Assembly (NCBI RefSeq): GCF_025641885.1 | Contig: NZ_JAOTQN010000001.1 | Coordinates: 310,001-374,000, forward strand | Direction of reading: 5' to 3' | DNA from: Pyrobaculum sp. 3827-6 | GTDB lineage: Archaea; Thermoproteota; Thermoprotei; Thermoproteales; Thermoproteaceae | DNA length: 64,000 nucleotides | Shown here: one piece after another, positions 24,000-42,297 of the stretch | How the letters are laid out: each line of letters opens with the position of its first letter | How positions within the stretch are numbered: the stretch's first letter is position 1 | Notes under the pieces: generated by a model | Databases searched by the model: none | What the model saw: the letters and a program-made list of their open reading frames with translations, nothing else | What the model was told of the DNA's origin: nothing | Made by a program: the position numbers and the translations under genes

Positions 24000-24802
24000 T
24001 AGCCGTAGCGCTGTACACACCCCTCCTCGGCTTCGCAACAGGCGCCGCAGACGGGACACAGCCGCGTCTAATATGCAACAGCCCGCCACAGCTAAAAAAA
24101 CCCCGCAGATGCCGAAACCCGCTGGTAGCCGCCGGCGTCTACAGCGCCAAAGGCCCGAGACCCAACAACGAGGACGCGGCCCTCGCGGTGATCTACCGAC
24201 AAGACAAGCAGATCTACAGCCTAGCCGCCGTCGCCGACGGCGTAGGCGGCCTCCGCAAAGGAGAAGTCGCCAGCCACGTCGCCGTCTGCCGCCTCGCGGA
24301 GGTCTTCATAAGCCACGTCACCAGAGGCGCCGCGCGGACAACCCAGTGGAGAACCTGGATAAAAGACGCCATAGACGCGGTACACCGCGCAGTCGTAGAA
24401 AAGGCAGGCGGAGGAGCCACGACCCTGACAGTGGCGATCTACGACGGCCAGCTCCTCCACGTGGCAAACGTCGGCGACAGCCCAGCCTACCTAGACGGAG
24501 GCATAGTAACCACGGAGCTCGACGAACAGGGAAGCTACATAACCCAGGCCCTGGGCCACAGAAGCTACACAGCACCTCACTACTACAGCCGCCCGCTACA
24601 CGCCAAGCGGCACGAGGTGGTGCTAGTCACAGACGGGGTAGACGACGTGTTGAAAAAAGAGGGGAAAGAGCTTTACAAAACGCCAGCAAAAACCCCCCTC
24701 TGCAAAGCCTGCCGCCTAGTCAACACAGCCCTCGCCAGAGGCGGGCGCGACAACGCCACAGCCGCCGTCATGTGGATCTACCACCCAGGAACTGTAGATT
24801 AA
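23996..24802 (+). CDS. PP2C-type Ser/Thr protein phosphatase
   Basis: 268 residues with the metal-binding motifs intact: NED (58-60), DGVGG (81-85), GGGATTL (138-144), GDS (160-162), TDGVDD (212-217), RDN (251-253). It is expected to be an active Mg/Mn-dependent phosphatase opposing the neighbouring kinase. The first 45 residues are an extra extension with two cysteines. ATG overlaps the kinase stop (ATGA). Its 3' end overlaps the convergent FHA gene by 35 nt, so those transcripts are antisense there. Confidence 0.93.
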   Translation: MIAVALYTPLLGFATGAADGTQPRLICNSPPQLKKPRRCRNPLVAAGVYSAKGPRPNNEDAALAVIYRQDKQIYSLAAVADGVGGLRKGEVASHVAVCRLAEVFISHVTRGAARTTQWRTWIKDAIDAVHRAVVEKAGGGATTLTVAIYDGQLLHVANVGDSPAYLDGGIVTTELDEQGSYITQALGHRSYTAPHYYSRPLHAKRHEVVLVTDGVDDVLKKEGKELYKTPAKTPLCKACRLVNTALARGGRDNATAAVMWIYHPGTVD

Positions 24803-25508
24803 CCACCTGCGCCACCGAGATAATATCCCCCGGCCTCAGCAACTGCGCCCCCAACCCCCTTATAGACCTCCCATTTAGAAAAGTGCCGTTCTTAGAACCC
24901 AAGTCCTCGATATAGTAGGCACCACCCGAAAAAGTAATAGCGAAGTGAACCCTGCTGATGTACTTAAGCAACTCCTGCGGAACACCCACCCTAGCAAAAA
25001 ACTCACGACCAAAAACCATATACGACCCCCTCACCTGAAGCCTAACGCCGGTAGGCAACTGCAGAAAATAGACAGGCTCCCCCCTGACGGGAGGCTTAAA
25101 CACCTTCACCACCCCCCGCCTAGAGGCCACCCACAGCGCAGCCACCACCGCGCCGGCCACAGCCACAGCCACGAGAGGCACAACAAGCGGAGGCAACCGC
25201 CCCCCAATAGTTATGTTGTAGATATACGGAAGCCCGTTGTGAACTATATACACCCGGTACTCCCCCTGCGCCGTGTTGGGAGTAGTCCTCCACAAAAGGT
25301 ACTTGCCGGTGATCCTCACCTCGAAATCCCTCTTAACAACCACATGCCCCGTAGACACGTCCACAACCTCGACGCTGGCCAACCCCGGCTCGTCAAAATA
25401 CACATACACACTCTCCCCAGGCGCAAAGCTAAGCCTCTCCAGCCCCGCGTCGTCGACAACGGTTACCCCCCACGCCGCCGCCGCCAGAAGCAGAACCAGC
25501 AAAAGCAT
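24768..25508 (-). CDS. Membrane protein with extracytoplasmic beta domain and cytoplasmic FHA domain
   Basis: About 246 residues: signal peptide or anchor (MLLLVLLLAAAAWG), a beta-rich outer domain, a membrane helix (PPLVVPLVAVAVAGAVVAALWVA), a juxtamembrane stretch, and a C-terminal FHA domain with GREFF, SRVHF and SKNGTFLNG, all key residues present. I chose ATG 25508 because GATATAAAT lies about 24 nt upstream; an upstream ATG at 25547 would overlap the divergent gene. It may read phospho-threonine at the membrane. Convergent with the PP2C gene. Confidence 0.85.
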   Translation of the reverse strand: MLLLVLLLAAAAWGVTVVDDAGLERLSFAPGESVYVYFDEPGLASVEVVDVSTGHVVVKRDFEVRITGKYLLWRTTPNTAQGEYRVYIVHNGLPYIYNITIGGRLPPLVVPLVAVAVAGAVVAALWVASRRGVVKVFKPPVRGEPVYFLQLPTGVRLQVRGSYMVFGREFFARVGVPQELLKYISRVHFAITFSGGAYYIEDLGSKNGTFLNGRSIRGLGAQLLRPGDIISVAQVVNLQFLGGRST

Positions 25509-25538
25509 AAAAATTAATATAGAGGTATTTATATCTTT
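25509..25538. promoter_or_regulatory. 30-nt overlapping divergent promoters in the FHA cluster
   Basis: Two leaderless starts face away from each other, ATG 25508 (minus) and ATG 25539 (plus), with 30 nt between. The minus-strand TATA (GATATAAAT, about 25527-25535) and the plus-strand TATA (CATAAAAATTA, about 25506-25516) lie within or next to the opposite gene. Transcription of the two genes is likely to be mutually exclusive or jointly controlled. Confidence 0.5.
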
Positions 25539-27101
25539 ATGAAACAACTCGGCAACCTCGAGGTGGAGATCTACGCCAGCGAAGCCCCCGAAGGCTATGT
25601 AGACGTCGAGGTGAGGCTCAAAGGAAGCCCCCAGGAGCCCGTCCCCGAGCGGGAAGTCGCCTTCGCCATACTAATAGACAAGTCAAAATCCATGGCGGAG
25701 TTCGACAAGCTACAACACGCCATACAAGCCGCCAAAGAAATCATAGACTCCATGCCCCCCAACAACATCGTCGCAGTCTACGCCTTCGACGAAAAAATCA
25801 AAACCCTCATCCCCCCACTCCCCGCCGAGAAGGCACAAAAACTAGCAAAACACCTCGAAAAACTCAAGCCAGGCACCTACACCCTCCTATACCAAGCCCT
25901 ACTCCACGTAATAGAAGAACTCAGAGGAGTCAAAAAAGGCCCCCTCCGCAGAGGCGCCGTCCCAGAAGACGCCGTCAAGCGGATAGTAGTAATCACAGAC
26001 GGAGAACCCTGGCCCTACTACACAGAGGAGAGGTGGTACGAATCCCTAGGCAGATCAGCCGCCAAATACGGAATAACCATATCAGCCATCGGCATAGGAC
26101 AAGACTACAACGAAAAAATACTACACACCCTAGCCACATCCTCAGGCGGCGCCTGGTACCACATAACCAGCGCAGGAGACCTCTCCAGAGTACTAGCAAA
26201 CGAACTCAAGCGGGCAAGCACCGTAGCAGCCCGCCACGTAAAAATCACCATAGAACCCACAGGAGCCGAACTCACAGAAGTAAGAAAAATAGGCCCCACA
26301 GTATCCAAACACCCACCCACAAAAGAAATAGAGATAGAAGAAATAACCGCAGGCGAGGTAGTCAGCACAGTCTTCAGAACAAAACCAACCACACAAAACT
26401 ACCACATCACCATCACAGTAGCCACAGAAGAAGGCCAAATCCAAGAAGAAATAACCCCCCAGAAACTCACCACAGACCGAACCGCAACCCTAACCCTAAC
26501 CATGGCCCAAGAACTAGAAAAGCTAGCCCAAGGCGGCGTCATCAGCGTCGAGGTACTCAGAGCAGTAGCCGACACCGAAACCACCCCAGAACACATCCGC
26601 AAAAAAGCCCAAAAACTCCTACAAGAACCACACCAAACAGGAAAAGAAGCCTACTGGGACGCCACAGTAACCCTCACCCTAGAAGAACCCAAACCCCCCA
26701 CCCAGCCACCCACAGAAGCCACCCCCCAACCCCAGCAACAAACCACAACCCAACCCCCAGCCACGGAGCCCACCACCCCCCACCCCACAAGCCAAGCAGT
26801 AAAATGCGTAGTAACATGCCCAGAAACCGGAAAAAGCATAGAAGTGGAACTACCAGCCCTCCTCGGCAGAGAAGACCTACAGCCAATACTACCCCCCGGC
26901 AAAGCCCCCTACATCTCCCGCAGAATAGGCGAAAGGGCCCACCTCAAAATATACACAACACCCCAGGGAATATACATAGAAGACGCAGGAAGCAAAGGCG
27001 GCATATACATAGAAGGAAAAAGAGTCACCCAGCCCACCCCACTCCCCAACACCACCATAAACCTCGCAGGAGTGGCAGATATAAAAATAGAATGTAAATA
27101 A
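25539..27101 (+). CDS. VWA-domain protein with C-terminal degenerate FHA domain
   Basis: 520 residues. N-terminal von Willebrand A domain with MIDAS DKSKS (47-51), the threonine of GTYTLLYQ and ITDGEPW; a beta domain; a Pro/Thr/Gln-rich linker (PPTQPPTEATPQPQQQ); then an FHA-like domain with LLGRED but SRRIGERAH instead of SRxH and SKGG instead of SKNG, so phospho-binding may be lost or altered. A cytoplasmic adaptor is likely. VWA plus FHA partners recall ArnB/ArnA, which control the Sulfolobus archaellum (a known system, not shown here). The coding strand is strongly A/C-rich. Confidence 0.88.
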   Translation: MKQLGNLEVEIYASEAPEGYVDVEVRLKGSPQEPVPEREVAFAILIDKSKSMAEFDKLQHAIQAAKEIIDSMPPNNIVAVYAFDEKIKTLIPPLPAEKAQKLAKHLEKLKPGTYTLLYQALLHVIEELRGVKKGPLRRGAVPEDAVKRIVVITDGEPWPYYTEERWYESLGRSAAKYGITISAIGIGQDYNEKILHTLATSSGGAWYHITSAGDLSRVLANELKRASTVAARHVKITIEPTGAELTEVRKIGPTVSKHPPTKEIEIEEITAGEVVSTVFRTKPTTQNYHITITVATEEGQIQEEITPQKLTTDRTATLTLTMAQELEKLAQGGVISVEVLRAVADTETTPEHIRKKAQKLLQEPHQTGKEAYWDATVTLTLEEPKPPTQPPTEATPQPQQQTTTQPPATEPTTPHPTSQAVKCVVTCPETGKSIEVELPALLGREDLQPILPPGKAPYISRRIGERAHLKIYTTPQGIYIEDAGSKGGIYIEGKRVTQPTPLPNTTINLAGVADIKIECK

Positions 27102-27529: not shown

Positions 27530-30500
27530 ATGCGGCACCTAGCAGTAGCAATACTACTCATAGCAATCACCACCACAGCCCAGACAATCTCAACCATCTA
27601 CAACCTCCCAGACCAAGTAAAAACAAAAATAGACGAAGCCGCATACCACCTAGTAAAAAACCGCGAATACCCCCTCAAACTCCCCCTAGCACTACCCGGA
27701 TTCGCCTACGGAAAACACAAAAACATACACATGATAGTAGTAGCAATACCATACAGCCCAGACAACCAAAGCGGAGTCACAAACCTAGTAAACACAATGA
27801 CAAATTTATTAGTAAATAGAAAGTGGGAGGGCTTTGCCAATGCCTTAGCCAGTATAAGAAGCGTGTACTATCCATACGAAACATTCAAAATCAAACTAAT
27901 CTTCATCATGTTTATAAATACACAAAACCTATTAGACATACTACAAGACACCATGAGAGACCTTATTAAAAATGGGGATGGAAAAGCAACAATACCATAT
28001 GTAGATAATATTCTAAGAATCTTAAAAGAAAACTTCACCAAATGGCAAGAAACCGAAGAGGCTAATCTATTAACAGAATTAGCGGATCCCCAGAAAATTA
28101 AAATTAATTTTGATGAAAATAAAGACATTTATATCGAGCAAGGGGGAAAAATTAAAATGACTCTTCATGTGAAAAAAAATAGTGAAACTATAGGTGATAT
28201 ATATATATACTTCAAGTATGAATCTAATGAATATACAAAAGATGATACAATGATGTGTGATATTTCAATAGTTTTTTATGATGTACTTTTTGACTACAGT
28301 TCGTTGCCTCCTAGTAGGATTCAAAGCGGTACCACACCGCCAAGATTTTATGATGCAGACATTAGATCATTTTTAAAAGAAAAATTGTATAGTTCACTAA
28401 GTAAATGGTTAAAACTAAGTGTGAAGAATCTTACTTATATATTTCCCGGTGCAAATAATGAATTGATTAACAGTCTGACATCTGAATTAAATAGTAATAT
28501 AACGCGATACGTATCAGATGTAGCAGTTGAAGTGTCGGTAAAACACCTAGATAGTTATGCTATTGACTCAATAGTTATGAATTATGTCCAGATTGGCAAA
28601 ATTTTAAATAATCGATTTACAAAGACGTCTGTTGGTAGTTGTTCGTCAGATAAGGTAGTTGATGCGTTTGAAAGTTTGTTACGTACAAATGTCGAAATTG
28701 GCAAAGAGACGCAGGTGGTCAAAGATTGGCTAATAAGCGCGGCGAAGGATTCAATCATTCTAAAATTTTCTTCCGCCCTTAATGATTTCGAAAATACATT
28801 TATAAATGATTTCAAAATTCTTGATAATTCATACAATAATCTATTGAATGGCATAAAAGATTCCTTTAATGATAAAGGGGATGAAATTAAACAAGAAATT
28901 ACTAAGATCGTAGGTAATACTTTTGGTCAAGTTGTTACAGGTTGCATTGAGGGCTATCTCAGCGACGTTGCAAAGAAAGGCATAGGAGCGGCGGTTTCTA
29001 CAATACCCGGTGCCAACGTAGTGCTGATGATACTTAACGGCGTGGTGGGGGGCTTAAGTAAAATCGTCATCATCAACGGTGAAATCTATACAGAAAGCTA
29101 CGTCCTTGACAGCACGTTCAAGGGTATTACCGTGTTCAACACCACTAACCGAGCCGCCTGCAGAGGCGATCGTCTACCGGTACGTTCTTCATTTGCAAGT
29201 TACCCGGACCTCACCGAAGCCGCCTTGGCGTTTCTACAAGGCGTTGCAAGCGGCATAGCTAAGATGTTTTGGTCAGGTGCGGGTGGAGTTATCGACATGG
29301 TTCCCATCGTCAGAGTTGTGGATCTGCCCTATCCAGGCTACTACTTCGCCATGCCAGCAGTACCCGGCATTTACAATATCACAATATCTGTAAAAGCCCA
29401 AAGCATAATAGACGAGTTTATAAAAGGAGCAAAGGAGAAAATCAAAAACCAGCTTAGTAACATAAAATACAAAGAGGGTTTGGCCAAGGTTGTCAATGAC
29501 ACTGTGTATAAGTATATAGATAAATTACTGGGTAATACCCCCAATGTTGAACGACTGGTCAACAGTAAGATAATCGCTTCATCAACTGAGAATTTTGATA
29601 AAGATGGTTACTTGAGGCTTAGCGTATATCTTGTTTCTGTGCCGCCGTATGTTTACGGCGGCAGGTCTGGCGACGTTTTTAACTACAGCCTCAGCTACGA
29701 CATATGGGGCGTCATAAGGGCAAACTTAGCCTCTCATGCGGCCAAAGTAAACAACTATATCCAAAAAATGTGCTCAAATCAGCAAAGTGAAGGCGACAGT
29801 AGTTCCGCCGGCCAGCTACGGCCGCAAGTTAGCCTAAATCCATTTGACCGATTGCAAGGTCTCTGTAAGGATAAGCTTCAAGAGTTGTTTCAACAGATCT
29901 TGAACAGAGTATTGAAGCCTTTGGACGACGTATCAGTTAGATTAGGAACGAGTGGGGACATTCAGTGCAGTCTGGAGGGCATTGTGGAAAGTGCTGGAAA
30001 ACAGGTAGTTGCTCAAGTTATTAGCGCAACTAAGTCAAAGATTGAAGAGAAGCTGAACGAAGTAGTTGGGGGAGGAATCTGCGGCAGTTTGGTAAATGCT
30101 GTTAGGGGGAGTGTCGAGAATTTAGTTGCGAAGATGTTAGAAGACGTATCGGGGGTGCAACAGTTAGCCAACGCGATATTCACGCCGGAGGGGTCAACCG
30201 CCGGAGGAAGTCAAAGCGGTCTGCCGCAGGAGGGATCTGGCGACGGTGGCGGTGGTAAGTCAATAAGGGTGGGGGTGTGTTCGTGGAACTCCGTGAAATT
30301 CGCCAAGCTTTACGCATTGAAGTTGTATAATAGTTTGGTGGATGCGTTAAATGTACCCTCTTACTTCTTGTCGATAAAGCCAATAACGTCGATGGCCGAG
30401 TCGCCGACTCAGAGGGTGTGCTATGGAGTGGTGAACGTTCCGTACTTTGTAAATACAGCTATGGATTCAAAAGGACTTTCAGATGAGGAAAAGAAGAGCA

Positions 30501-31165
30501 TCATACTAGATTCACTAGATATCATAGCAAGCGACGAGACACTTAAATCATTATTTTACAGATTTATCGATAAAAAAACATTTAAAAGTTATATAGTTAG
30601 TTATGAAATTAGGTTGTTCCCACCCTCAATTAATCTGCATACAGAGGAAGTGGAGCTTAATATTCTGTATCAAATTGATGGGAAAGTTTATTATTTATGT
30701 AAGCCTCCTCCATACGTTTTTAGTGATATAAAAATATCTTTATTTTCCATTCCGTCTTTACCTCAAGATCCATCTAAAAAGGAGAGTCTGTTAAAAGAAC
30801 TGATTGATCGTTCAATTCTAAGAGATGATTTGAGGAGTTGTGAGCAGATGAGTTTGATAATTCAGCGTCTTACGGATGTAAACGGTATCGACGATTTGGT
30901 TGGCAGGTTGCTTGAGTTGAGATCTGCTAGGCGTTTGGTAATGCCTGTAGCCACTGGGTACAATGTCTATTTTAGTGCTGGTAAGGTATATCCAGTTATT
31001 AGGGTCACGGCCCAGGGTGAGAAGAACCCGTACTACTTCGTTGTGCCGTTTGCTACTCCGGCTCGTGAGTTTTTTGTGCTTGGCAAGGTGGGCGATGTAG
31101 TTGTGTTTGACGGTGGTGAGGCCGTGGTGAACAAGCCGTTTTACTACATCAACGTGACGAGGTGA
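27530..31165 (+). CDS. Very large secreted protein of unknown function (1211 residues)
   Basis: Signal peptide (LAVAILLIAITTTAQ), then long helical and mixed regions with no recognised domain. Two adjacent Gly-rich hydrophobic stretches near residues 480-520 and 555-590 (IGAAVSTIPGANVVLMILNGVVGG; GVASGIAKMFWSGAGGVIDMV) could insert in a membrane. A Gly/Ser linker (GSTAGGSQSGLPQEGSGDGGG) separates a C-terminal part; cysteines are spread through it. Composition changes along the gene: A/C-rich, then very AT-rich (about 27.8-28.9 and 30.4-30.9 kb), then G/T-rich. A TATA-like ACATTTAAG 25 nt upstream lies in the end of the FHA gene. It could be the exported substrate of the adjacent system. Confidence 0.75.
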   Translation: MRHLAVAILLIAITTTAQTISTIYNLPDQVKTKIDEAAYHLVKNREYPLKLPLALPGFAYGKHKNIHMIVVAIPYSPDNQSGVTNLVNTMTNLLVNRKWEGFANALASIRSVYYPYETFKIKLIFIMFINTQNLLDILQDTMRDLIKNGDGKATIPYVDNILRILKENFTKWQETEEANLLTELADPQKIKINFDENKDIYIEQGGKIKMTLHVKKNSETIGDIYIYFKYESNEYTKDDTMMCDISIVFYDVLFDYSSLPPSRIQSGTTPPRFYDADIRSFLKEKLYSSLSKWLKLSVKNLTYIFPGANNELINSLTSELNSNITRYVSDVAVEVSVKHLDSYAIDSIVMNYVQIGKILNNRFTKTSVGSCSSDKVVDAFESLLRTNVEIGKETQVVKDWLISAAKDSIILKFSSALNDFENTFINDFKILDNSYNNLLNGIKDSFNDKGDEIKQEITKIVGNTFGQVVTGCIEGYLSDVAKKGIGAAVSTIPGANVVLMILNGVVGGLSKIVIINGEIYTESYVLDSTFKGITVFNTTNRAACRGDRLPVRSSFASYPDLTEAALAFLQGVASGIAKMFWSGAGGVIDMVPIVRVVDLPYPGYYFAMPAVPGIYNITISVKAQSIIDEFIKGAKEKIKNQLSNIKYKEGLAKVVNDTVYKYIDKLLGNTPNVERLVNSKIIASSTENFDKDGYLRLSVYLVSVPPYVYGGRSGDVFNYSLSYDIWGVIRANLASHAAKVNNYIQKMCSNQQSEGDSSSAGQLRPQVSLNPFDRLQGLCKDKLQELFQQILNRVLKPLDDVSVRLGTSGDIQCSLEGIVESAGKQVVAQVISATKSKIEEKLNEVVGGGICGSLVNAVRGSVENLVAKMLEDVSGVQQLANAIFTPEGSTAGGSQSGLPQEGSGDGGGGKSIRVGVCSWNSVKFAKLYALKLYNSLVDALNVPSYFLSIKPITSMAESPTQRVCYGVVNVPYFVNTAMDSKGLSDEEKKSIILDSLDIIASDETLKSLFYRFIDKKTFKSYIVSYEIRLFPPSINLHTEEVELNILYQIDGKVYYLCKPPPYVFSDIKISLFSIPSLPQDPSKKESLLKELIDRSILRDDLRSCEQMSLIIQRLTDVNGIDDLVGRLLELRSARRLVMPVATGYNVYFSAGKVYPVIRVTAQGEKNPYYFVVPFATPAREFFVLGKVGDVVVFDGGEAVVNKPFYYINVTR

Positions 31166-31167
31166 CG

Positions 31168-31776
31168 CTACTGCTGGGTAATTTCTAAAACTATTTTTTT
31201 CCTGGCGCATATATAACTCCACAACATATACGGAGCCCCACTTATGCTGTTACAACTATTTATCGCCCCTTCACCAAATACCTCATTTATTATTTGTCGT
31301 AGCTCTTGTGGCAGTTTGTCGCAACTTATTTGCTGTGCGACGTCGGTTATGAGGAGGTATCCTGCTGTGCATGCGGCTACTTTGTCGGGTGACGGCGCTG
31401 TGGCTTTTGCTTTTATTGTGTAGACTCCGTGTGGTAGTGTTATTTCCTGTGCACTTGTTTTGCCGAATAGTCTTACTTCTATGTCGTGTTGGGTGGGGAT
31501 TTTCTTTACGCCTTGTGGCGTTGTTATGTATATACAGGTGGGGGCGCCGCAGTCTATATAGGCTATTTTCTGTATTTTTATCTGGAGGTCGTGTGGGAGG
31601 GCGATTACCGCCTCTTTTTCTGTGCCGGGTTCTGTGTTTAGCAGGTTTTGTATTGCTATTGAGAGGTCGTCAGCTAGGAATAGGCGTATGTTGCCCATTA
31701 GGTAGAGGTACGTGCCGTATATGGCGGTTGAGGTGGCTATCAGCAGGGCGGCTAGCAGTATGTAGGAGGGCCTCAT
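31168..31776 (-). CDS. Pseudopilin-like membrane-anchored protein
   Basis: 202 residues: one N-terminal hydrophobic helix (YILLAALLIATSTAIYGTYLYLMG), then an extracytoplasmic beta-rich domain with several cysteines (DCGAPTC, ACTAGY, SCDK, NSCNS). Last gene of a seven-gene operon; ATG overlaps the upstream stop by 4 nt. No clear prepilin peptidase site. The stop is only 2 nt from the convergent 1211-residue gene. Confidence 0.6.
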   Translation of the reverse strand: MRPSYILLAALLIATSTAIYGTYLYLMGNIRLFLADDLSIAIQNLLNTEPGTEKEAVIALPHDLQIKIQKIAYIDCGAPTCIYITTPQGVKKIPTQHDIEVRLFGKTSAQEITLPHGVYTIKAKATAPSPDKVAACTAGYLLITDVAQQISCDKLPQELRQIINEVFGEGAINSCNSISGAPYMLWSYICARKKIVLEITQQ

Positions 31777-32525
31777 TGCTCAGCTCTACATTTTGTAGTT
31801 ATTACTGTTCCGGCTCCTTCTCCGATGGAGGTGGCGACTATTACTAGTCGACAACTTTTATCTGCAAACTCGGGGGGGATGGCTACCTTTATCTCGTGTC
31901 TGTTTGTGATGTTGAAGTACCAGATGGCTTCTCTGGGGTCGAGGTTGCCGAGTGCTGGGAATACTCTCAGCCCTACGTCTGACGCTATTTGGTAGACCGC
32001 GGCGTAGTTTATTAGGTTGATTGGGGTGTCTCCCCGGGTTAGGCTTACCACCGCTCTGACTCCGCCGAAGAGCCCTAGGTTTTTGTGTTCTATGTGGACG
32101 TCTGCTTTTGAGTAGACGAATGCTATTTGTCTGTGGCCGTCTTTTCGGCATTCTGCCTCTACGTAGATTTCGCTGATGTATTTGTCACCTGCTTGTGATT
32201 TGGCTGCGGCCTCTACCCTTGTTAAGCTACACTGGGTGCCTCTCAACATTGCGTACGCCGCCGCCTTTGGGAGGAAGGTTATGTTTAGGTAGCTTTTGAA
32301 GGCTTTGGCGGGGTCTTCGTCTTTTGTGGCGTTTATTACAAGGGCGGTGGCGTACATGGCCTCTTCTATGGAGTTTCTTAGCATGTGTTCTATTTCTCTC
32401 TTTTCTATTATGTTGTCTTCTATGGCGGCTTGGGGGCCTAGTGTCCTCTTGGGGAGGGTTACGAGCATTATGAGTGTCGTGGCGAGTATTATGGCGGCTA
32501 CCGCGAGGGCTACTTGGCCTCTCAT
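31773..32525 (-). CDS. Pilin-like protein with class III-type signal
   Basis: 250 residues. N-terminus MRGQVALAVAAIILATTLIML: RG followed by Q-V fits the archaeal prepilin peptidase site, with the hydrophobic helix directly after it. The rest is an extracytoplasmic domain with cysteines. ATG overlaps the preceding stop by 4 nt. Likely a minor pilin of the machine encoded divergently at 35.4 kb. Confidence 0.65.
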   Translation of the reverse strand: MRGQVALAVAAIILATTLIMLVTLPKRTLGPQAAIEDNIIEKREIEHMLRNSIEEAMYATALVINATKDEDPAKAFKSYLNITFLPKAAAYAMLRGTQCSLTRVEAAAKSQAGDKYISEIYVEAECRKDGHRQIAFVYSKADVHIEHKNLGLFGGVRAVVSLTRGDTPINLINYAAVYQIASDVGLRVFPALGNLDPREAIWYFNITNRHEIKVAIPPEFADKSCRLVIVATSIGEGAGTVITTKCRAEQ

Positions 32526-32917
32526 CGTGACAGCATTAGGACTACTAGCCTCCCCTCGCCTCTTGTTATTAGGATCTGGGCGCCGTCGGCGGCTGTGGGG
32601 TTGTATCCGCGGGTTATTGTGAAGAGCTTGCCTTTGGTGAGGGATGTCACGGTTAGGTTGTAGCCTATGTTGGGGGGTATTAGGGTCTCTAGGGCGAGAC
32701 GGGCGTATTGGGGGTCTCCATCGCCTGTCATGCCGTAGGCGACGGCGTAGATGATTCCGCTGTCTGTCCAGTTGATTAGTATGCGCTGGGCGTTTATCCG
32801 GAGGGCGTAGTCGCCTGCGACGTACTGCACTTTGAAGAGGTGTTGGGACATGACGAAGGTGAGGATGACCGCGGCGACGATTAGCACTGTTTCATATAGG
32901 GCGGCTTGGCCTCTCAT
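32522..32917 (-). CDS. TadE-like or minor pilin
   Basis: 131 residues from ATG 32917: MRGQAALYETVLIVAAVILTF, an RGQ-type signal with a Glu soon after the cleavage region, as in type IV pilins and TadE. The longer frame upstream runs into the preceding gene and is rejected because ATG 32917 overlaps its stop (ATGA). Extracytoplasmic beta-rich C-terminus. Confidence 0.65.
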   Translation of the reverse strand: MRGQAALYETVLIVAAVILTFVMSQHLFKVQYVAGDYALRINAQRILINWTDSGIIYAVAYGMTGDGDPQYARLALETLIPPNIGYNLTVTSLTKGKLFTITRGYNPTAADGAQILITRGEGRLVVLMLSR

Positions 32918-33396
32918 GGCTTGGAGATGGGGGTGGCCTTCACCGTGCCGTTGGGTAGCACTATGAAGGAGGTTGCCGGCTGGCTTACCAGCGCCTGGGG
33001 GTCTCTGCATGGGAGGGGGTGGGCGGATTTGGCTGTGTCTTGGGGGATTTGGTAGGAGGGGGAGGGTACGAGGAAGTAGTAGCCTTTGGGGTAGTTGAGG
33101 TACGTGGCGTTGATGAGGAGGGCGGGGTAGCCCGAGGCTCTGAAGTACTTAATGTCTAGGTCTGTGCACTCCATGTAGTAGGGCGTGATCAAGAGCTCCT
33201 GTCCCTTTACTTTTAGTAGTGTGATGTTGCTTGGTTTGAAGTAGACGCTTTGCGCGCCCGCGGCGCCTTCGAGTATCTTGTATCTGCTTTCTATGAGGGA
33301 TATGTATCCCTGTGCGGTGGTTAGGAAGTTGGTGGTGGCTAGGTAGACGGCTGCCGCGAAGACGACGATGAGGATGACTGCCTCTACTACGTTCAT
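32914..33396 (-). CDS. Pilin-like membrane-anchored protein
   Basis: 160 residues with an N-terminal helix (VEAVILIVVFAAAVYLA); the E-A-V-I order would fit a relaxed prepilin peptidase site. The rest is an exported domain with two cysteines. A TATA-like GTTTATATCC lies 24 nt upstream, inside the operon, so this and the following three genes may have their own promoter. Confidence 0.6.
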   Translation of the reverse strand: MNVVEAVILIVVFAAAVYLATTNFLTTAQGYISLIESRYKILEGAAGAQSVYFKPSNITLLKVKGQELLITPYYMECTDLDIKYFRASGYPALLINATYLNYPKGYYFLVPSPSYQIPQDTAKSAHPLPCRDPQALVSQPATSFIVLPNGTVKATPISKP

Positions 33397-33424
33397 GTTG
33401 TTAATATTGTTTGGGGATATAAAC
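33397..33424 (-). promoter_or_regulatory. Internal promoter in pilin operon
   Basis: The only real gap (28 nt) in the seven-gene operon holds TTTATATCC on the minus strand, centred about 24 nt before ATG 33396, matching other leaderless promoters in the window. Confidence 0.45.
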
Positions 33425-33964
33425 TTATTTTAGGTAGAGTACGATTTCTGGCTTTTCTACTTCTATGTCGTTGTCGTTTTGGCATTTTGTTACTGTGGTG
33501 TATATGTAGTACTCTCTGCCTTGGCTGTCTACGCGTTTCTGTCTGGCGAGGCGGGGGGCCGGGAGATCTCCTTGGCAGGCGGCCCATTCTTTGACGGTTT
33601 TTTCCAGTACGGCCCGGGTGCCTGTGCCGCTGAGTATTTCGATGCCTGGGGCGGCTGAGGTGAGCTCTGCTGTGTTGATTTCGCACTGGGCGGGGGCTCT
33701 GCTGTCTCTCCCGACGGTGATTAGGATCTTGTCTCCGGCGGCCTCTATGGTGAGGGGGTAGTAGAACTCTACGTATGCTGTGTAGTTGCCCGGCTCTATT
33801 CCGGCGCGTTGTGTCATTAACTTGATTAGGGTGGCGGCTTCGTAGCACGCTCTTAGATTTATGTCGTAGACGGCGCCGTCGTACAGCGTGAATACGTAGA
33901 GCATGGCGGCTGCCCCCCCGGCGAGGATTACGGCGTACAGCAGGGCGGTTGCGGGGATTTCCAT
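33425..33964 (-). CDS. Pilin-like membrane-anchored protein
   Basis: 179 residues: N-terminal helix (ATALLYAVILAGGAAAMLYVF) and a beta-rich extracytoplasmic domain with four cysteines. ATG 33964 overlaps the upstream stop (TGATG); GTG 33967 is an alternative. No canonical class III cleavage site. Position and layout mark it as an accessory pilin-like subunit. Confidence 0.6.
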   Translation of the reverse strand: MEIPATALLYAVILAGGAAAMLYVFTLYDGAVYDINLRACYEAATLIKLMTQRAGIEPGNYTAYVEFYYPLTIEAAGDKILITVGRDSRAPAQCEINTAELTSAAPGIEILSGTGTRAVLEKTVKEWAACQGDLPAPRLARQKRVDSQGREYYIYTTVTKCQNDNDIEVEKPEIVLYLK

Positions 33965-34554
33965 CACCTAGCCAGGGCCTGTCTGATGTACAGCTTGATG
34001 AAAGTCGCCGACCCGCTGTATACCTCTCTCCCGGCGGCTGAGATAGTAACTGTGCAGCTGGTGGATTCCTTTGGGATTATTGTGATTTCTTTTGTGTCTA
34101 TGGTTTCTAGGGCTAGGGGGGAGCCGTATATTTTTTCATCTGCGATGTTTGTAATATTGGTGAAGGTAATGGCTATGTACTTGACGCCGTAGAGTGTCTC
34201 TGTGGATATGTGTGATCCGTAGGGGGGGACTTCGCCTTCTTTAAACACCGCGGTGAGGTCTGGCTTTACCTCTGTCAAGCTCTCCATGGGGTGCGGCGCG
34301 AGGTACCACGCCGAGGCATCATAAGACGTTGCGCCGAGGGAGTCTGCGGCGCAGTTGCTTGACCAGCTGATTTTGAAACCTAGTTTTTTGACGTAGAGCG
34401 CCTCTCTGAAGTTGTATATGTTTGACACTTTCAGCAACTGCCAGCCCACGTCTAGAGCCTTGGCCGAGTCTAGAAGAGGAAAAAGGAAAGTAGATACGGT
34501 TGCTACTAACGCGACGACAAGGAAAAAAAGGAGGATAGTTGGTACGATGTCCAT
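33964..34554 (-). CDS. Pilin-like membrane-anchored protein
   Basis: 196 residues: N-terminal helix (TILLFFLVVALVATVSTFLFPLL), then an exported beta-rich domain with two cysteines. ATG overlaps the pilin stop (TAATG). Family not recognised beyond layout. Confidence 0.6.
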   Translation of the reverse strand: MDIVPTILLFFLVVALVATVSTFLFPLLDSAKALDVGWQLLKVSNIYNFREALYVKKLGFKISWSSNCAADSLGATSYDASAWYLAPHPMESLTEVKPDLTAVFKEGEVPPYGSHISTETLYGVKYIAITFTNITNIADEKIYGSPLALETIDTKEITIIPKESTSCTVTISAAGREVYSGSATFIKLYIRQALAR

Positions 34555-35060
34555 TAACGCACCGTTACGGGGTAGAGCTCAGTCCTTTCTCTGCCGCTTC
34601 CCTTTTGGTAATATACGGCCAAGTAGTAAGTAACGCCAGGTTGTAGATCTTGATTCGTGATTCTGCCTACTAGAGTTTTAGATTGACCAGCTTGTAGTGT
34701 AAGATCTTGCCCACCTTGTTGCCCACTTCCCTGATTAGTGGAGAAAGTTATTGGAATTCCCTCATCCTGCCCGCCTCCGCTACCTTGCCCACTACTTCCG
34801 CTACCTTGTCCGCTACTTGTGCCGCCTAAGAGCTTTGCCTCAAGGATTGTTGTTGAGGCGCCACCTACTTCTCTTACAGTTATTGATACGTCATATGTTT
34901 TGTCGCCTATTTTTGTAATGCTTGCTTTTTCAATTATGACTTTTGGCTGTGGGTTGAACATTCCTGAGAACATGCCCCAGAACATTAGGACGGCTACTAT
35001 GCCTATCACCGTCAGCAGTACTGCTATTACCACGCCGCTGATGCCTCTTGGGTTCCGCAT
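34554..35060 (-). CDS. Archaeal type IV pilin, probable major subunit
   Basis: 168 residues. N-terminus MRNPRGISGVVIAVLLTVIGI is a textbook archaeal class III signal: RG then I-S, followed by the conserved hydrophobic helix (DUF1628-like). The globular domain has an unusual Gly/Ser/Gln-rich insertion of about 35 residues (SGQGSGSSGQGSGGGQ). First gene of the operon with a TATA-like ACTTAAAAAC 25 nt upstream. Divergent from the secretion ATPase. Confidence 0.85.
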   Translation of the reverse strand: MRNPRGISGVVIAVLLTVIGIVAVLMFWGMFSGMFNPQPKVIIEKASITKIGDKTYDVSITVREVGGASTTILEAKLLGGTSSGQGSGSSGQGSGGGQDEGIPITFSTNQGSGQQGGQDLTLQAGQSKTLVGRITNQDLQPGVTYYLAVYYQKGSGRERTELYPVTVR

Positions 35061-35409: not shown

Positions 35410-37692
35410 ATGCGGCTGTTTTCCAGATCTAGGGATGTGGAGGAGGGTTCTGAGGGGGGTGGTGGGCGTCGTGGGTTGTTTGGTAGGAGGAGGAAGGGTG
35501 AAGGGGAGGAGGAGGGGGGGTCTGGGGTGTCTGTTAGGGTGTGGCGTGGGGGTGTGGAGGGGCGTGTGGTGGAGTCTTATAGGGTGGGTATTTCGACGGT
35601 TAGTGTTGTGGAGCGCGGCGCGTCTCTTTACTATGTGGTGGAGGACCCTCCCGTCTCGGAGAGGGATTTAAGGAGGCTGGGGTCTGTGTTGGAGAGGATT
35701 TCTGAGGAGTTGGAGGATCCTGGGCTTTTTCTGGACGTCCAGAGGCGGGAGGAGGCTAGGGCTTATCTGAGGGAGAGGCTTGGGAAGCTGGGGGTTAAGA
35801 GCGACGTTTTGGTGGCGTTGGCGGAGCGGGAGCTTTTGGGGTTTGGGCCTCTGGATCCTGTGCTTAGGGATAAGAATTTGGAGAATGTGGAGTGTAAGGG
35901 GCCTGATGTGCCGCTGACGGTGTTTCACTCGCGGCATGGCCGTATGGAGACTAATATGTCGTTTTCGAGGGGGGAGCTTGACCGGCTGGTGCAGAGGCTG
36001 GTTTTTCTGTCTGGGAGGACTATCAGCATCTCTAGCCCGAAGGTTGACAACGCTTTTCTGCCGGGGGTTGGGCGCCTCACCGCGACCTACGGGGGGGAGA
36101 TCTCTCCTCAGGGCTCGTCGTTTGTGGTGCGTATTTTTCCGGAGAGGCCTTGGACGGTGCTGGGGCTTCTGGAGCGGGGTACTATTTCGCCGGAGCTGGG
36201 GGCTTATCTGTGGCTTGCTGTGGAGTTTAAGATGCCGATTTTGGTGGCTGGGGAGATGGGGTCTGGGAAGACTAGCTACGCCAATGCCCTTCTGGGGCTG
36301 GCGCCGCCTGACAAGCGGATCGGCACCGCGGAGGACCTCCCCGAGTTTAAAATTCCTCATTTGAACTGGCAGTCGCTTATTACCGACGATAGGAGGGGGG
36401 TTACGCTTATGGATCTGGTGGCTCTTCTCCTGCGCTACAACGTGGATTATGTTGTTATCAACGAGATTAGGGGTGCGAGGAATCAGAGGGGGGAGGTGGA
36501 CGCCGTGGCGTGGTTCCAGGCTGTGGCGACGGGGCACGGGGGTGTCACCACAATACACGCCGACACTGTGGAGGACGTGTTTAATAGACTTGACCAGATG
36601 GGTATCCCGCCGTCGTACCTCACCTCCCTGGCGCTTGTGGTGTATATCGGGAGGTTTAAGATCGGGGGGAGGATCCAGCGCAGGACTCAGTACGTTTTTG
36701 ACATCGTGGACCCCGCGAAGAGGCTTTACAACACCATATTTAGATACGACAGGGACTGCGACTGCTACCGGGCTGAGGGTCTCGAGTCGGCGAGGACTAC
36801 TAAGAGGATTATGGAGCTGGCTAAGTGGGACGCCGAGAGGTTCAAGGCGGAGTTGGATAGGAGGGCTGAGTTCCTGAGGAGGCTCCTCTGCATCCACCAG
36901 AGGAAGCCTATTGTTGATCTTAGGGAGTTGGCCGAGCTTTTTGCGAGGTTTTATAGGGGGTACATGCCTGAGGTTGGGGACTGCGCACCGGCGCAGCTGG
37001 GGCCTCGGCAGCCCGCCGCCGCGCCTAGGCCCTCTGCTGAGTGGGTTCTGAGGTTTAGGGGGCCGCGCGGCAGGAAGGTGTACTACTTCGAGCCCTCCCC
37101 CGGCTTGGTGTTGCTTAACGTGGAGGGGAACTCCAGGGTTGTGGAGGATGAGGTGTTTGAGCTGTATGTGAATGGGAGTGGGGAGCTGAGGTACAGGGTG
37201 GAGATGGATGGCAGGGAGGTTGGGCGGGGGGTCCTGCCTCTGGTTAAGCAAGCTCCTGGTGGCGTGTCTGGGGATCTTGTCCCCGCGTCTAGTGGGGCCG
37301 CGCCTCCGGCTGGGCGGGGGGCGGAGGCGGCCGGGGCGGTGGGCGAGGAGACGCTGGTGGCTGAGGAGACGAAGGTTGTTGAGGAGACTCTAGTCGCCCC
37401 CCAGGTTGGTGACCTGTGTATCAAGTTCGGCGGTGGGGTTGTCAAGCTTGTAGATGGGAAGGTCTATGGGAGGGCTGACTTTGGCTTTCTGGAGGCCGAT
37501 TTGGCTTCGTATGTTTCGCGTCAGCATTTTAAGTCGATGCGTGTGGAGGGGCGTTGGTATCTCGTGGATTTGGGGTCTAAAAACGGCTTGTATATAAACG
37601 GCGCCAGGGTCGAGGCTGGGGGGCGTGCTGAGGTTTGGCCGGGTTACAGGGTTAGGGTAGGCAAGGCGGAGGGGGTGGTGGAGCTATGTTGA
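35410..37692 (+). CDS. Type IV pilus/Tad-type secretion ATPase fused to a C-terminal FHA domain
   Basis: 760 residues. The N-terminal 40 residues are charged and Gly-rich. The GspE/FlaI/TadA ATPase core has LLGFGPLDP, Walker A GEMGSGKT (281-288), Walker B-like VVINEIRG (348-355) and the His box TTIHADT (380-386). A C-terminal linker holds a period-6 threonine repeat EETLVAEETKVVEETLVA (nt 37345-37398, Thr 648, 654, 660), and then an FHA domain with YGRADF, SRQHF and SKNGLYING. The ATPase powers pilus assembly or secretion at the inner face of the membrane; an FHA fusion is not part of normal FlaI/PilB/TadA and suggests control by Thr phosphorylation. It overlaps the platform gene by 7 nt. Confidence 0.95.
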   Translation: MRLFSRSRDVEEGSEGGGGRRGLFGRRRKGEGEEEGGSGVSVRVWRGGVEGRVVESYRVGISTVSVVERGASLYYVVEDPPVSERDLRRLGSVLERISEELEDPGLFLDVQRREEARAYLRERLGKLGVKSDVLVALAERELLGFGPLDPVLRDKNLENVECKGPDVPLTVFHSRHGRMETNMSFSRGELDRLVQRLVFLSGRTISISSPKVDNAFLPGVGRLTATYGGEISPQGSSFVVRIFPERPWTVLGLLERGTISPELGAYLWLAVEFKMPILVAGEMGSGKTSYANALLGLAPPDKRIGTAEDLPEFKIPHLNWQSLITDDRRGVTLMDLVALLLRYNVDYVVINEIRGARNQRGEVDAVAWFQAVATGHGGVTTIHADTVEDVFNRLDQMGIPPSYLTSLALVVYIGRFKIGGRIQRRTQYVFDIVDPAKRLYNTIFRYDRDCDCYRAEGLESARTTKRIMELAKWDAERFKAELDRRAEFLRRLLCIHQRKPIVDLRELAELFARFYRGYMPEVGDCAPAQLGPRQPAAAPRPSAEWVLRFRGPRGRKVYYFEPSPGLVLLNVEGNSRVVEDEVFELYVNGSGELRYRVEMDGREVGRGVLPLVKQAPGGVSGDLVPASSGAAPPAGRGAEAAGAVGEETLVAEETKVVEETLVAPQVGDLCIKFGGGVVKLVDGKVYGRADFGFLEADLASYVSRQHFKSMRVEGRWYLVDLGSKNGLYINGARVEAGGRAEVWPGYRVRVGKAEGVVELC

Positions 37693-39371
37693 GGAGGCTT
37701 TCGCCTGACCCGGAGCAGGCGGCTGTTCTGGGGGTTAGGCTGGACGCGCTGAGGCGCACTGGCTTGATTTTGGTGGCCGCCGTCGGGGGCCTTGGGGGGG
37801 TTTTGGCGGCGTTTGCCTTAATGGCGCGCCAGCCGATGTTTCTAGCCGGGGCTCTGCTGGCGTTTCTCCTCGCGCCTGTGTTGTATATGTACCCCCTTTT
37901 TGAGGTTAGGAGTAGGCTGGGGAGGGCGGAGGGGGAGCTTCTGCCTGCGGCTGTGTACGCCACTATCTACGCCGCGGCGGAGCGGGATATGGCTGAGGGC
38001 TTCTTCGCGGTGGCTCGGGAGGCGGATCTCGCCCCGAGCTTGTCTGCGATGGCTAAGGGGGTTGAGAGGTTGCGGGTGAAGCGCCTCATCCCGACGTCGT
38101 ACGAGGCTCTGGGGGAGGCGGCGCGGCTTTTTGAGGGGAGCAAGGTTTCAGACTTCCTAATCACCATGTCTGTCGCCCGCACGGTGGGGCTTAGCCAGTA
38201 TATCCAGGCGAGGGATCTTTTGAGGAGTGTCTTGTTTGAGCTTAAGTCCGCCTATGCCCGTCTGGCTGAGAACTTGAAGACGCTGGGGGAGGTGATTTTG
38301 GTGTTTTTCGGCGTCTTGCCGCTGATGCTCTTCATCACCACGACGATTTTCTACAGCTCTGGGGCGTCTATGCAGTTGCTGGCCTACACCTTTGTGGGGA
38401 TCCCGCTCTTCACCGTGGCCTTGGCTTTTCTCCTAGACGCGTCGTATCCCAAGACGCCTGAGAAGTTTTTGAGGTGGTACAGGCTGTACGGCATCGGGGC
38501 GGCCGCGGGGGCCGCCGCGGGCTTCGCCGTGTATATGGCTGTGAGCCCTCTGGGGCTTCCGGTGAAGTCTCTCCCGGCTAACGGCCTGCCTTTCCTTAGA
38601 GATATCCGGGCGTCGTACGCCGCGGCCATTGCGCTGGGCGTGGCGGCGGCGGTTGTCTTCGGCTTCGTTGTTCCTAAGTACCTGGCGGAGAGCTCCAGGA
38701 GGTGGGGGCTCATCTCGGCGTTGCCTTTCTTCACCAGGGACTTGGCTGAGTTGGTGAAGACTGGGCTGTCTCCCGCGCAGGCGGTTGTGAGGCTTGCGGA
38801 GAGGAAGACGTACAATAGGCATTTTGACCGGCTTTTGAGAGACGTGATGAGGAGGATTGTGTCGGGGGCTACTTTTTCAGAGGCGGTGAAGGCCGCGGGG
38901 GCTGGGGCGCCGTGGTTCGCCCGCGTGGTTCTCCACGCCTCGGCGGAGGCGGAGAAGCTGGGCGCTAGACACGAGATTTTTGCAGAGCTCGCCGACACGT
39001 CGAGGGAGCTTGTGGATATTTTGAAGGCGGCGCGGGCAAACGCCAGGGGGTCCGTCATGTTTGGCTTTATGACTATTGGCATAATCGCCGTCCTCATGGG
39101 GGGCGTGGTGAAGACGCTGGTTTTTCAAGTAGCCGACTACGCTACGAACGTGTCGGCGGCCGGCGCTGTTCCTATGAATATTCAGCTAATTACATGGAGC
39201 AGGGTACCGGAGGTGTTGAGATACGCCTTGGTGGGGGCTGTCATAAACTCGGTGGCTTTGGGGGTTCTGATTGGTAAGATGAGTGACGGCAACTTCTTCG
39301 CCAGCGCTCTTTACGGACTTATAGCTTCAATCATAGCCACCGCCTCGATATTTGCGTCACTCTTTATATAG
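37686..39371 (+). CDS. TadC/FlaJ-like platform membrane protein (two T2SSF domains)
   Basis: 561 residues with about nine membrane helices and two T2SSF-like cytoplasmic regions (around residues 75-190 and 340-440), the layout of archaeal pilus platform proteins. It binds the ATPase and the pilins. The ATG overlaps the ATPase gene by 7 nt, so the two are made together. Confidence 0.9.
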   Translation: MLRRLSPDPEQAAVLGVRLDALRRTGLILVAAVGGLGGVLAAFALMARQPMFLAGALLAFLLAPVLYMYPLFEVRSRLGRAEGELLPAAVYATIYAAAERDMAEGFFAVAREADLAPSLSAMAKGVERLRVKRLIPTSYEALGEAARLFEGSKVSDFLITMSVARTVGLSQYIQARDLLRSVLFELKSAYARLAENLKTLGEVILVFFGVLPLMLFITTTIFYSSGASMQLLAYTFVGIPLFTVALAFLLDASYPKTPEKFLRWYRLYGIGAAAGAAAGFAVYMAVSPLGLPVKSLPANGLPFLRDIRASYAAAIALGVAAAVVFGFVVPKYLAESSRRWGLISALPFFTRDLAELVKTGLSPAQAVVRLAERKTYNRHFDRLLRDVMRRIVSGATFSEAVKAAGAGAPWFARVVLHASAEAEKLGARHEIFAELADTSRELVDILKAARANARGSVMFGFMTIGIIAVLMGGVVKTLVFQVADYATNVSAAGAVPMNIQLITWSRVPEVLRYALVGAVINSVALGVLIGKMSDGNFFASALYGLIASIIATASIFASLFI

Positions 39372-39411
39372 ATTTGTGAGAAAATTTTTTAAACTGGGAG
39401 AAGTTTTGGAT

Positions 39412-41763
39412 ATGCGTAAGGAAGTCGTTATATCGCTTGTAATCGTTATGTCGCTCATGTTAATGCAGATAACGCATGCACAGGACATAGTAAGATATAG
39501 CACTACTGTAAGGGCGCCACTGCCTTCGCCTTCGGGGGATTTTATAGTGGTGGTGGCGGACGAGTATGGTTTTGTCAGGGGCGAGGCCTATCTTGGTGAT
39601 TATCTATATGTTGTCTTTGACTTGACTCAGTTCACTGGTAGGGTGAGGGTTAAGGTGTATTTTGACTATAGGCTGGTGGCGGAGGGTACTGTGGATGGGG
39701 GGTATTGGTATGCTTATGGTTTTAGGACTGTGGAGCCTATTTTTGAGGGTAAGGTCTACACTGTTAGGGTGGAAGTATATTCGCTCGGCGGTGTCCTGCT
39801 GGGGAGCGGGACGTATAGCTATGTGGAGAAGTACTGCCCAGATGCCGACATTGTTGACGTAAAGTGGAGCCCGTTTATTCATAAGCAGACTTCTTCTGTT
39901 ACTGTGAGGGTTAGGAACAGGGGGGAGAGGGGTGAGGCTTATCGTGTGGTTGTGTATTCCCAGTCTGGTGCTTTACGGGAGACTTCCGGGTCGGTGAGTG
40001 TGGGGTCGGGCTCTACTGGTGAGGTGACTCTGGCGGTTCCGGTGGATAAGTACGTGTCTAATGATGTGATGTATGTAAAGGTGCTGTGTGCCGGGGGGAG
40101 GAAGGAGGCGGCTGTCCGCACGTTTCCCATCTCCGTGGTTCCTCAACGGCCGGGGCCTTTCACAGCTTCGATTAGCACTGTGGAGCTTAGGCTGGGGGTT
40201 GAGGGTGTGTTTTCTATTACTGTGACTAACAAGGGGTATGCGGCCGACATAGTTGATTTCTCGCTGTCTGAGGGGCGGTATACGGTGGATAAGCCTTCGC
40301 AGGTGGGGGAGGGCGGATCTGCTACTTTTACTATTAGACTTACGCCTGAGAGGGCTGGGGTGTACGAGATCAAGGCGGTGCTTCGCTATAAATCTCCTGC
40401 GACAGGCGAGGTGTATGAGGATGTCTTTACGATACCTGTGAAGGTATATGCCAGACTTGCCGTAGAGTTGCGTGACCACACTGGCCAGTTGCTGGACGCC
40501 GTGCCTGTGATTGACGGAGTGGCGGCGCGGGAGAGGTGGCTCCTTCCCGGCACCTACACCGTGGAGGTTCCTCAGGTTGTGAATGTCGCCCCAGACGTGA
40601 GGGCTGTTTTTGAGAGGTGGGAGGGGGCGGCTGGGGGGACGAGAGCCACGGTGAGCCTCGAAAAGAATACTGTGGTGAAGGCGTTGTACAGCAGGCAGTA
40701 CCGCGTCGTGGCCTACCTCGCGCCTGCCGGTAACAACCTGGAGGCGTGGGTGAGGGAGGGCGACGTATATACCCTGCCGGTTGATAAGTACGTCTCCGTG
40801 GAGAGGGGGGTGAGGTGGGCTTTGAGAGATGTGAGGGTGAACGGCGTCTCGCAGGGTGTAAATACGCAGTTCCGCGTGGTGCAACCCACCGAGGTGAGGA
40901 CTGTGTGGGCTCGGGAGTACCTCCTAGTTGTGGACTGCGGTGATGTAAAGTGTGTAGGGGGGGAGAGCCGAGTGGAGAGGTGGGTTGAGGAGGGGGGCTC
41001 TCTGAGTGTCAGTCTTGAGCAGTATGTCCCGGCTGGGGGTAGGGAGAGGTGGCGGCTGGACGGGGATGCGAAGATGTCTATAAAGGCCGATGGGCCGAGG
41101 GAGATAAAGCCGAGGTACGTGAGGCAGTATCTTCTTAAGCTGGGCTATGTGGTTAGGGATGCCTCCGGAGAGGTCGAGAGGCGGGTTGTGAAGGAGGAGT
41201 GGGTAGACGCCGGTGTTCAATATTCAGTAGATGCCAACTCCCTCAGGCCGGTGGGGGGCGAGGGGGTTAGCTACAGACAGTCCGCCGTACTGCTTGACGG
41301 CAAGCCGTCGTCGGCGTCTTTCACCGTGGCGGCTCCACACGACGTCTATGTGGTCTGGGATAAGTACTACTTAGTGGAGGTCTATACGCCAATCGGAACG
41401 GCCTCTGGGGCCGGCTGGTACCTGGCTGGTAGCTACGCCACCGTGTCGATTGACCAGCCGGTGCGCGGATTCCTAGTACTGGACAAGTTTGAAGGTTGGA
41501 GAGATCAGAGTGGCAACATGTATAGAAACGCAACTGTTACTCTAAGGGTTGATCAGCCGATTAGGTTAACTGCCGTGTGGTCTAAAGACTACACACAGGT
41601 TGCCGCAGTAGCCGCAGTTGGGGGGGCTGTGGGATTTTTTGGATGGATAAAGCGCGACGCTCTGGAGAGTATGTGGTATAGACTGGAGAGTACTGTGACA
41701 AGAACGCGGAGTAGTGATAGAAAAAGGAAGAGGAAGAATATAGATATTGAAAAAGTAGAATAG
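39412..41763 (+). CDS. Secreted beta-repeat protein, second member of the pair
   Basis: 783 residues from ATG 39412: signal peptide (VVISLVIVMSLMLMQITHAQ), beta domains, then four or more FExW..G......TV.A.Y...Y.V repeats like those of the 19850-22249 protein, a C-terminal membrane helix (AAVAAVGGAVGFFGWI) and a basic tail (DRKRKRKN). The frame is open to 39352, but a TATA-like TTTTTTAAAC lies 25 nt before 39412. It closes the pilus operon and mirrors the first protein of the kinase operon. Confidence 0.75.
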   Translation: MRKEVVISLVIVMSLMLMQITHAQDIVRYSTTVRAPLPSPSGDFIVVVADEYGFVRGEAYLGDYLYVVFDLTQFTGRVRVKVYFDYRLVAEGTVDGGYWYAYGFRTVEPIFEGKVYTVRVEVYSLGGVLLGSGTYSYVEKYCPDADIVDVKWSPFIHKQTSSVTVRVRNRGERGEAYRVVVYSQSGALRETSGSVSVGSGSTGEVTLAVPVDKYVSNDVMYVKVLCAGGRKEAAVRTFPISVVPQRPGPFTASISTVELRLGVEGVFSITVTNKGYAADIVDFSLSEGRYTVDKPSQVGEGGSATFTIRLTPERAGVYEIKAVLRYKSPATGEVYEDVFTIPVKVYARLAVELRDHTGQLLDAVPVIDGVAARERWLLPGTYTVEVPQVVNVAPDVRAVFERWEGAAGGTRATVSLEKNTVVKALYSRQYRVVAYLAPAGNNLEAWVREGDVYTLPVDKYVSVERGVRWALRDVRVNGVSQGVNTQFRVVQPTEVRTVWAREYLLVVDCGDVKCVGGESRVERWVEEGGSLSVSLEQYVPAGGRERWRLDGDAKMSIKADGPREIKPRYVRQYLLKLGYVVRDASGEVERRVVKEEWVDAGVQYSVDANSLRPVGGEGVSYRQSAVLLDGKPSSASFTVAAPHDVYVVWDKYYLVEVYTPIGTASGAGWYLAGSYATVSIDQPVRGFLVLDKFEGWRDQSGNMYRNATVTLRVDQPIRLTAVWSKDYTQVAAVAAVGGAVGFFGWIKRDALESMWYRLESTVTRTRSSDRKRKRKNIDIEKVE

Positions 41764-42212: not shown

Positions 42213-42297
42213 GGGGTGTTGTTGGAGGCGTCTTTTAAGCTGTGGCCCGCCGCGGGGGGGGGGCGTCAGGTTTATATAGGGGGGTTGGGGCTTTTTT

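Follow-up and report, generated by a model that had tools for sequence, protein, structure and literature searches.

Can threonine phosphorylation act on a pilus machine directly, through the motor that builds the pilus? Known archaeal phospho-Thr (pThr) signalling acts on motility-gene expression, and the question is raised by one gene in the window analysed here, a 64,000-nucleotide stretch of DNA from Pyrobaculum sp. 3827-6. Its product comprises, in order, a T2SSE ATPase core, a beta-sandwich, a disordered linker with a threefold Thr repeat, and a C-terminal FHA domain. The parts of this protein and the neighbouring genes of the island are listed in Table 1.

Table 1. Positions in the window of the motor ATPase, its parts, and the other island genes.
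Feature	Position	Strand	Evidence or remark
CARDB-type surface protein, cytoplasmic tail GETTVVRGSKTVEIEPIKEDSDTKVRETRG	19850..22249	+	
Soluble Ser/Thr kinase, C-terminal FHA	22809..23999	+	Pkinase E 1e-39
PP2C phosphatase	23996..24802	+	PF13672 E 1e-13
Membrane-anchored FHA protein (TM-FHA)	24768..25547	-	FHA E 5e-15
VWA-FHA protein	25539..27101	+	VWA E 5e-18, FHA E 4e-6
Small FHA protein, 134 aa	27105..27509	+	FHA E 6.5e-15
1211-aa secreted protein, family unassigned	27530..31165	+	Syntenic in G016
Seven pilin-like small proteins, N-terminal hydrophobic segment each	31168..35060	-	Divergent from ATPase gene
FHA-fused pilus motor ATPase, 760 aa	35410..37692	+	T2SSE and FHA by Pfam
T2SSE ATPase core, aa 235-411	36112..36642	+	Pfam and invariant residues
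Beta-sandwich insert, aa 541-615	37030..37254	+	AF2 mean pLDDT 92.8
Disordered linker, aa 616-666	37255..37407	+	AF2 pLDDT <50
Period-6 Thr repeat EETLVA-EETKVV-EETLVA, aa 646-663	37345..37398	+	Candidate phospho-acceptors T648/T654/T660
FHA domain, aa 669-760	37414..37689	+	Pfam, AF2, pocket residues
TadC/T2SSF-type platform membrane protein	37686..39371	+	PF00482 E 1.2e-12, NCBIfam UpsF
Large CARDB/InlB-B-like surface protein, C-terminal membrane anchor	39352..41763	+	

The preliminary description had claimed a secretion ATPase with a built-in FHA domain, and this is confirmed by Pfam, which recognised both the T2SSE core (E 2e-24) and the FHA domain (aa 700-751, E 2.5e-9; wider in the structure prediction) in a single 760-aa frame. 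The hallmarks of archaeal type IV pilus (T4P)-type motor ATPases, namely a T2SSE domain with Walker A (GEMGSGKT), Walker B (VINEIRG), and His boxes (GHGGVTTIHAD), are all present, with residues G281, G286, K287, T288, E352, H376, and H383 of the core invariant, and a TadC-type platform protein, which accompanies such motors, is encoded by the adjacent gene that overlaps the ATPase stop. The top NCBIfam models were those of the archaellum ATPase FlaI and the bindosome ATPase BasE, both under their cut-offs, and the TadA family scored more weakly than archaeal GspE/FlaI/BasE. The closest solved structures are archaeal GspE (2oap) and FlaI (4ii7), and 6ccd (Rv1747) is the sole FHA among the PDB sequence matches. 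By these likenesses, the protein is classified as an archaeal type IV pilus/GspE-type motor ATPase carrying an FHA domain, and its nearest models and structures (FlaI, BasE, and archaeal GspE), together with relatives in Thermoproteota, indicate that the window is archaeal. The beta-sandwich was unrecognised by Pfam and without a PDB structural match at E<=0.001.

Within the linker, the triplet EET occurs at aa 646-648, 652-654, and 658-660. The translation agrees with the earlier placement of Thr 648, 654, and 660 at period 6 and with a branched aliphatic residue at +2 of each (V/V/V here, V/L/V in the orthologue described below). FHA specificity is usually set by the +3 residue, which is A/V/A in the ATPase and W/L/A in the orthologue; A and W are not typical determinants for FHA domains, and judged by this residue the middle site (T654) appears the most FHA-like of the three. 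In the AF2 model of the C-terminal part, the beta-sandwich and the FHA domain are confident, the linker is disordered, and the repeat is unstructured. The FHA domain contains the GR, SxxH, and NG residues of phospho-Thr-binding FHA domains (G687-R688, S703-R704-Q-H706, and N725-G726, the canonical pThr pocket), and the structures closest to it in fold, among them GarA, OdhI, and DgcB with its tail peptide, are FHA domains that bind pThr. The geometry would permit binding in cis of T648 or T654, with T660 sterically marginal because just about 10 residues separate the third unit from the first strand of the FHA domain.

An orthologue in G016, a genome of a different genus in the same family (L032:3077-5296), encodes a 739-aa protein of equal architecture and 72% identity, whose linker reads EETVVW-EETRLL-EETLVA. 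Conservation of the repeat in orthologues, a test set beforehand on which the phospho-acceptor proposal could have failed, is seen in this only orthologue: all nine E/E/T residues, and hence all three EET triplets, are kept, with the third unit (EETLVA) the best conserved. Identity is 363/466 in the ATPase, 46/69 in the beta-sandwich, and 64/91 in the FHA domain; within the linker it is 13/18 in the repeat versus 9/33 in the remainder (Fisher p 0.003), all of this being one independent comparison (two orthologues). From this pair of sequences, the repeat appears to be conserved to the same degree as the folded domains, with the other linker parts fast-evolving. A functionless repeat, produced by chance low complexity or recent codon slippage, would fit the tandem arrangement of the units at the DNA level, where 4-7 of 18 nt differ between them. 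We give that explanation very little credence, however, and two results speak against a chance or slippage origin: among 200,000 shuffled versions of the 56-residue linker, 0 had the pattern EETxxxEETxxxEET, and the orthologue keeps the repeat with synonymous change while the flanks have diverged. Relative to G016, nine repeat codons are identical, four synonymous, and five changed, and because 4 of the 13 conserved codons differ synonymously, the match between the orthologues is not a recent copy. In 157,527 aa of fetched loci, EETxxxEET occurs in no other predicted protein besides those of the ATPase gene and its orthologue.

The repeat might instead be an unphosphorylated structural or docking element, serving as an acidic spacer or adding a strand to the FHA domain or to TadC, with an FHA domain that works independently of phosphate. 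The Glu residues are indeed conserved as strictly as the Thr, and phosphate-independent binding of some partners is known for FHA domains of the GarA type (Nott et al. 2009, as cited in PMC12321487). Yet Thr would be dispensable in an acidic spacer, and all three Thr are kept; AF2 assigns the repeat no structure, the pThr pocket is intact, and a kinase and a phosphatase are linked to the gene, and we consider such an element improbable.

The fusion was present in 2 of 398 sampled Thermoproteota genomes, those of the window and G016. Among the 19 family genomes, the G016 protein is the one orthologue beyond the window; the 81 class genomes contained no further full-length ATPase match among the matches listed and no FHA in any other ATPase frame; and across the 398 genomes, no ATPase match at E<=1e-70 beyond this pair reached the FHA domain. 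Other FHA matches in the 398-genome sample lay in frames no longer than about 510 aa or in kinase/VWA proteins. A search of genome contigs with the ATPase gave no match, and when the kinase served as query, bacterial kinases crowded the result. A diverged fusion may occur in an unsampled genome. That FHA domains are unusual in GspE/FlaI/TadA ATPases, as had been stated, is borne out for archaeal motors; in bacteria, such fusions are documented (PMC12019362, PMC8460266).

The genes around the ATPase gene resemble those of a pilus machine and a phosphorylation module. All seven pilin-like proteins have syntenic homologues in G016 (six of the seven were tested against Pfam, with no match), and the TadC-like protein is 70% identical there. 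The kinase retains the catalytic K/HRD/DFG residues in alignment. In the G016 locus, the order of the pilin/ATPase/TadC block is kept, with TM-FHA, VWA-FHA, and the large secreted protein adjoining; the PP2C, kinase, and CARDB genes lie on the downstream side of TadC. Across the 19 family genomes, the TadC-like partner and the FHA-kinase are found in the same three genomes only (the window genome, G016, and G008), in each of which PP2C adjoins the kinase (3/3). The TadC fragment of G008 lies at a contig end, so the ATPase gene may fall in an assembly gap. This co-occurrence suggests that the pilus machine and its kinase are inherited together, and since kinase and phosphatase genes accompany the motor gene both in the locus and in inheritance, the motor is probably switched directly by phosphorylation. 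The kinase module is also present in genomes without the fused ATPase, so the kinase must have other clients; kinase, PP2C, TM-FHA, and CARDB-like genes cluster in other Thermoproteales that lack the fusion, and homologues of TM-FHA occur in loci of other Thermoproteales.

Several further observations concern these gene families. In several Thermoproteales (L033, L045-L055), the signalling cluster at 22809-27509 recurs next to genes for surface proteins, in most cases without a fused ATPase. In G007, two divergently arranged membrane FHA genes (L034:6461-7414 and 8151-9119) encode near-identical FHA domains with different membrane/extracellular parts. A CARDB-type surface gene at L052:7766-9973 extends over three overlapping frames, reflecting frameshifts or assembly errors, and T[RKV]V motifs abound in its tail. 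Just outside the island, a small protein encoded at 42242-42823 has heptad-like repeats in tandem (NKRIDEV) and is probably a coiled coil.

Motifs resembling the linker repeat occur elsewhere in the islands. The pattern [DE][DE]T[KRVL], derived from the ATPase repeats alone, occurred 5 times in a set of 21 other segments, drawn from linkers ahead of FHA domains and from surface-protein cytoplasmic tails with boundaries set by hand. Shuffled sequences gave an expectation of 0.62 (p about 4e-4), motif and segments both having been chosen after the sequences had been seen; looser patterns gave weaker p values in the same 21 segments. We regard this modest enrichment as suggestive only. The occurrences are TEETKLG and VEETVVADRG before FHA domains, and GEETRTW (G016), DETKTR, and PVEETRSSS (both G008) in surface-protein tails; the related tail sequences DSDTKVRE and GETTVVRG are found in the window. 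Pairwise likeness between the surface-protein tails was limited to isolated nominal matches. Separately, a similar tail motif is present in surface proteins at L031:10149-12272, L033:4863-7259, L144:849-3527, and window 19850-22249 (RLEPLEGEETRTW, EIELIEYDETKTR, GIEPVEETRSSS, and EIEPIKEDSDTKVR), all membrane-anchored and with partly unrelated ectodomains, and this common motif is possibly a kinase site or an FHA ligand.

Such tail motifs bear on the main rival to a switch built into the motor, namely that the ATPase FHA domain is a receptor for phosphorylated partners (CARDB-type tails, VWA-FHA, or the kinase), so that adhesin engagement would recruit or position the motor and the linker repeat would be secondary, autoinhibitory, or a pseudo-ligand. 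The related motifs in island surface-protein tails speak for it, as do KilF and T6SS Fha, which work in contact-triggered machines (PMC8460266, PMC12607579). Enrichment in the tails alone is weak, however (p 0.012-0.18 by pattern), one of the window's two CARDB-type surface proteins has no tail motif, and the upkeep of the linker repeat would be left unexplained; we rate this rival as fairly unlikely.

The reading that we favour, at even chances, is that the pilus motor is under a multivalent Thr-phosphorylation switch composed of the linker EET sites and the FHA domain. It draws on the observed domains, repeat, conservation, predicted disorder, pocket residues, synteny, and co-occurrence, and the earlier proposal that the three Thr are FHA-directed phospho-acceptors is upheld to the extent that the repeat is kept in a disordered linker, the pThr pocket is intact, and the kinase (22809) and PP2C (23996) are encoded close by. 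Under such a switch, the island FHA-kinase would phosphorylate the linker EET threonines, T654 perhaps before the other two, as its +3 residue would suggest by analogy, and PP2C would strip the phosphates off again. If the motor is a hexamer like its homologues, the phosphorylated form would present as many as 18 pThr alongside 6 FHA domains. A part of these pThr would be held by the FHA domain of their own or a neighbouring subunit, leaving the tails closed or cross-linked, and the surplus could recruit other island FHA proteins, the membrane-anchored one above all. Phosphorylation would thereby control if the motor engages the TadC platform and assembles pili, and at which place it does so. 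A more far-reaching version seems to us possible rather than probable. In it, this would be the first pilus motor of an archaeon with a direct Thr-phosphorylation switch, based on a multivalent code of three acceptor Thr and one FHA domain per subunit, with one acidic-Thr motif shared by the module's kinase, phosphatase, FHA proteins, and surface-protein tails.

Should it be true, a phospho-reader and its candidate ligands within one motor would imply post-translational control of the pilus machine in hyperthermophiles, and the repeat predicts which substrate motif an archaeal kinase, itself uncharacterised, would recognise. Our literature search found no report of an FHA-fused archaeal pilus motor ATPase. 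Three things are new here: an archaeal pilus motor that ends in an FHA domain, its threefold Thr repeat, and an island whose kinase and phosphatase are co-inherited with it. FHA-fused secretion ATPases were known before in bacteria, and the window protein is an archaeal variant of these, not a new category.

Compared with FlaI, GspE 2oap, UpsE, and BasE, the window ATPase has the same core with Walker A/B and His boxes, and a TadC-type partner and pilin-like genes adjacent, whereas these motors lack an FHA domain and the window ATPase adds a beta-sandwich, a Thr-repeat linker, and FHA after the ATPase. In Sulfolobus, the ArnA-ArnB-ArnC system of kinase, FHA, and VWA proteins controls a type IV pilus-like machine (PMC12852372, PMC6509490). 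ArnC phosphorylates T353 in the SIETT motif of ArnB, in a region needed for early ArnA binding (PMC12852372), which provides an archaeal precedent for Glu-Thr sites. Arn acts on archaellum expression via a zinc-finger FHA protein unfused to the motor, whereas the window FHA domain is fused to it; according to Makarova et al. (PMC4858521), ArnA/B are never found inside T4P loci, and the window ATPase, which lacks the zinc finger, is not an ArnA. Elsewhere in the window genome (L041:9225-9680 and 9677-11332), an ArnA-like zinc-finger FHA protein is encoded next to a Ser/Thr kinase gene.

Among bacterial systems, GarA/OdhI carry the phospho-Thr motif ETTS N-terminal to FHA (PMC12321487) and had been offered as the precedent. 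They do show an FHA domain with a pThr in the same chain, but they are one of several such cases, and, being small free regulators of metabolic enzymes with one motif, they do not accommodate a 760-aa motor ATPase fusion that has EET but no ETTS. DgcB and Rv1747 fit better. The FHA domain of Bdellovibrio DgcB is bound by the protein's own Thr peptide LEKpTSIV (PMC6733907), although DgcB is a diguanylate cyclase with a single site and the window ATPase has three candidate sites. Mycobacterium Rv1747, a transport ATPase, likewise combines FHA domains with a disordered linker, and its condensation is controlled in vitro by the kinase PknF and the phosphatase PstP (PMC9312465); it is an ABC transporter with two FHA domains, against one in the window ATPase. 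In the T6SS, PpkA/PppA/Fha form a kinase, phosphatase, and FHA switch of secretion-machine assembly (PMC12607579), although the machine is unrelated and its kinase is transmembrane, unlike the soluble kinase of the island. Comparable fusions are bacterial CpaF class III (PMC12019362) and Myxococcus KilF (PMC8460266), secretion/Tad ATPases with an N-terminal FHA domain, which in CpaF class III is attached through a disordered region; the Kil loci are rich in FHA proteins. Both belong to the bacterial Tad lineage, whereas the window ATPase is archaeal, carries its FHA domain at the other end, and has archaeal GspE/FlaI/BasE as its nearest ATPases, which places it outside their group. If the switch is real, it would be convergent with KilF and CpaF class III, at the opposite end of the protein.
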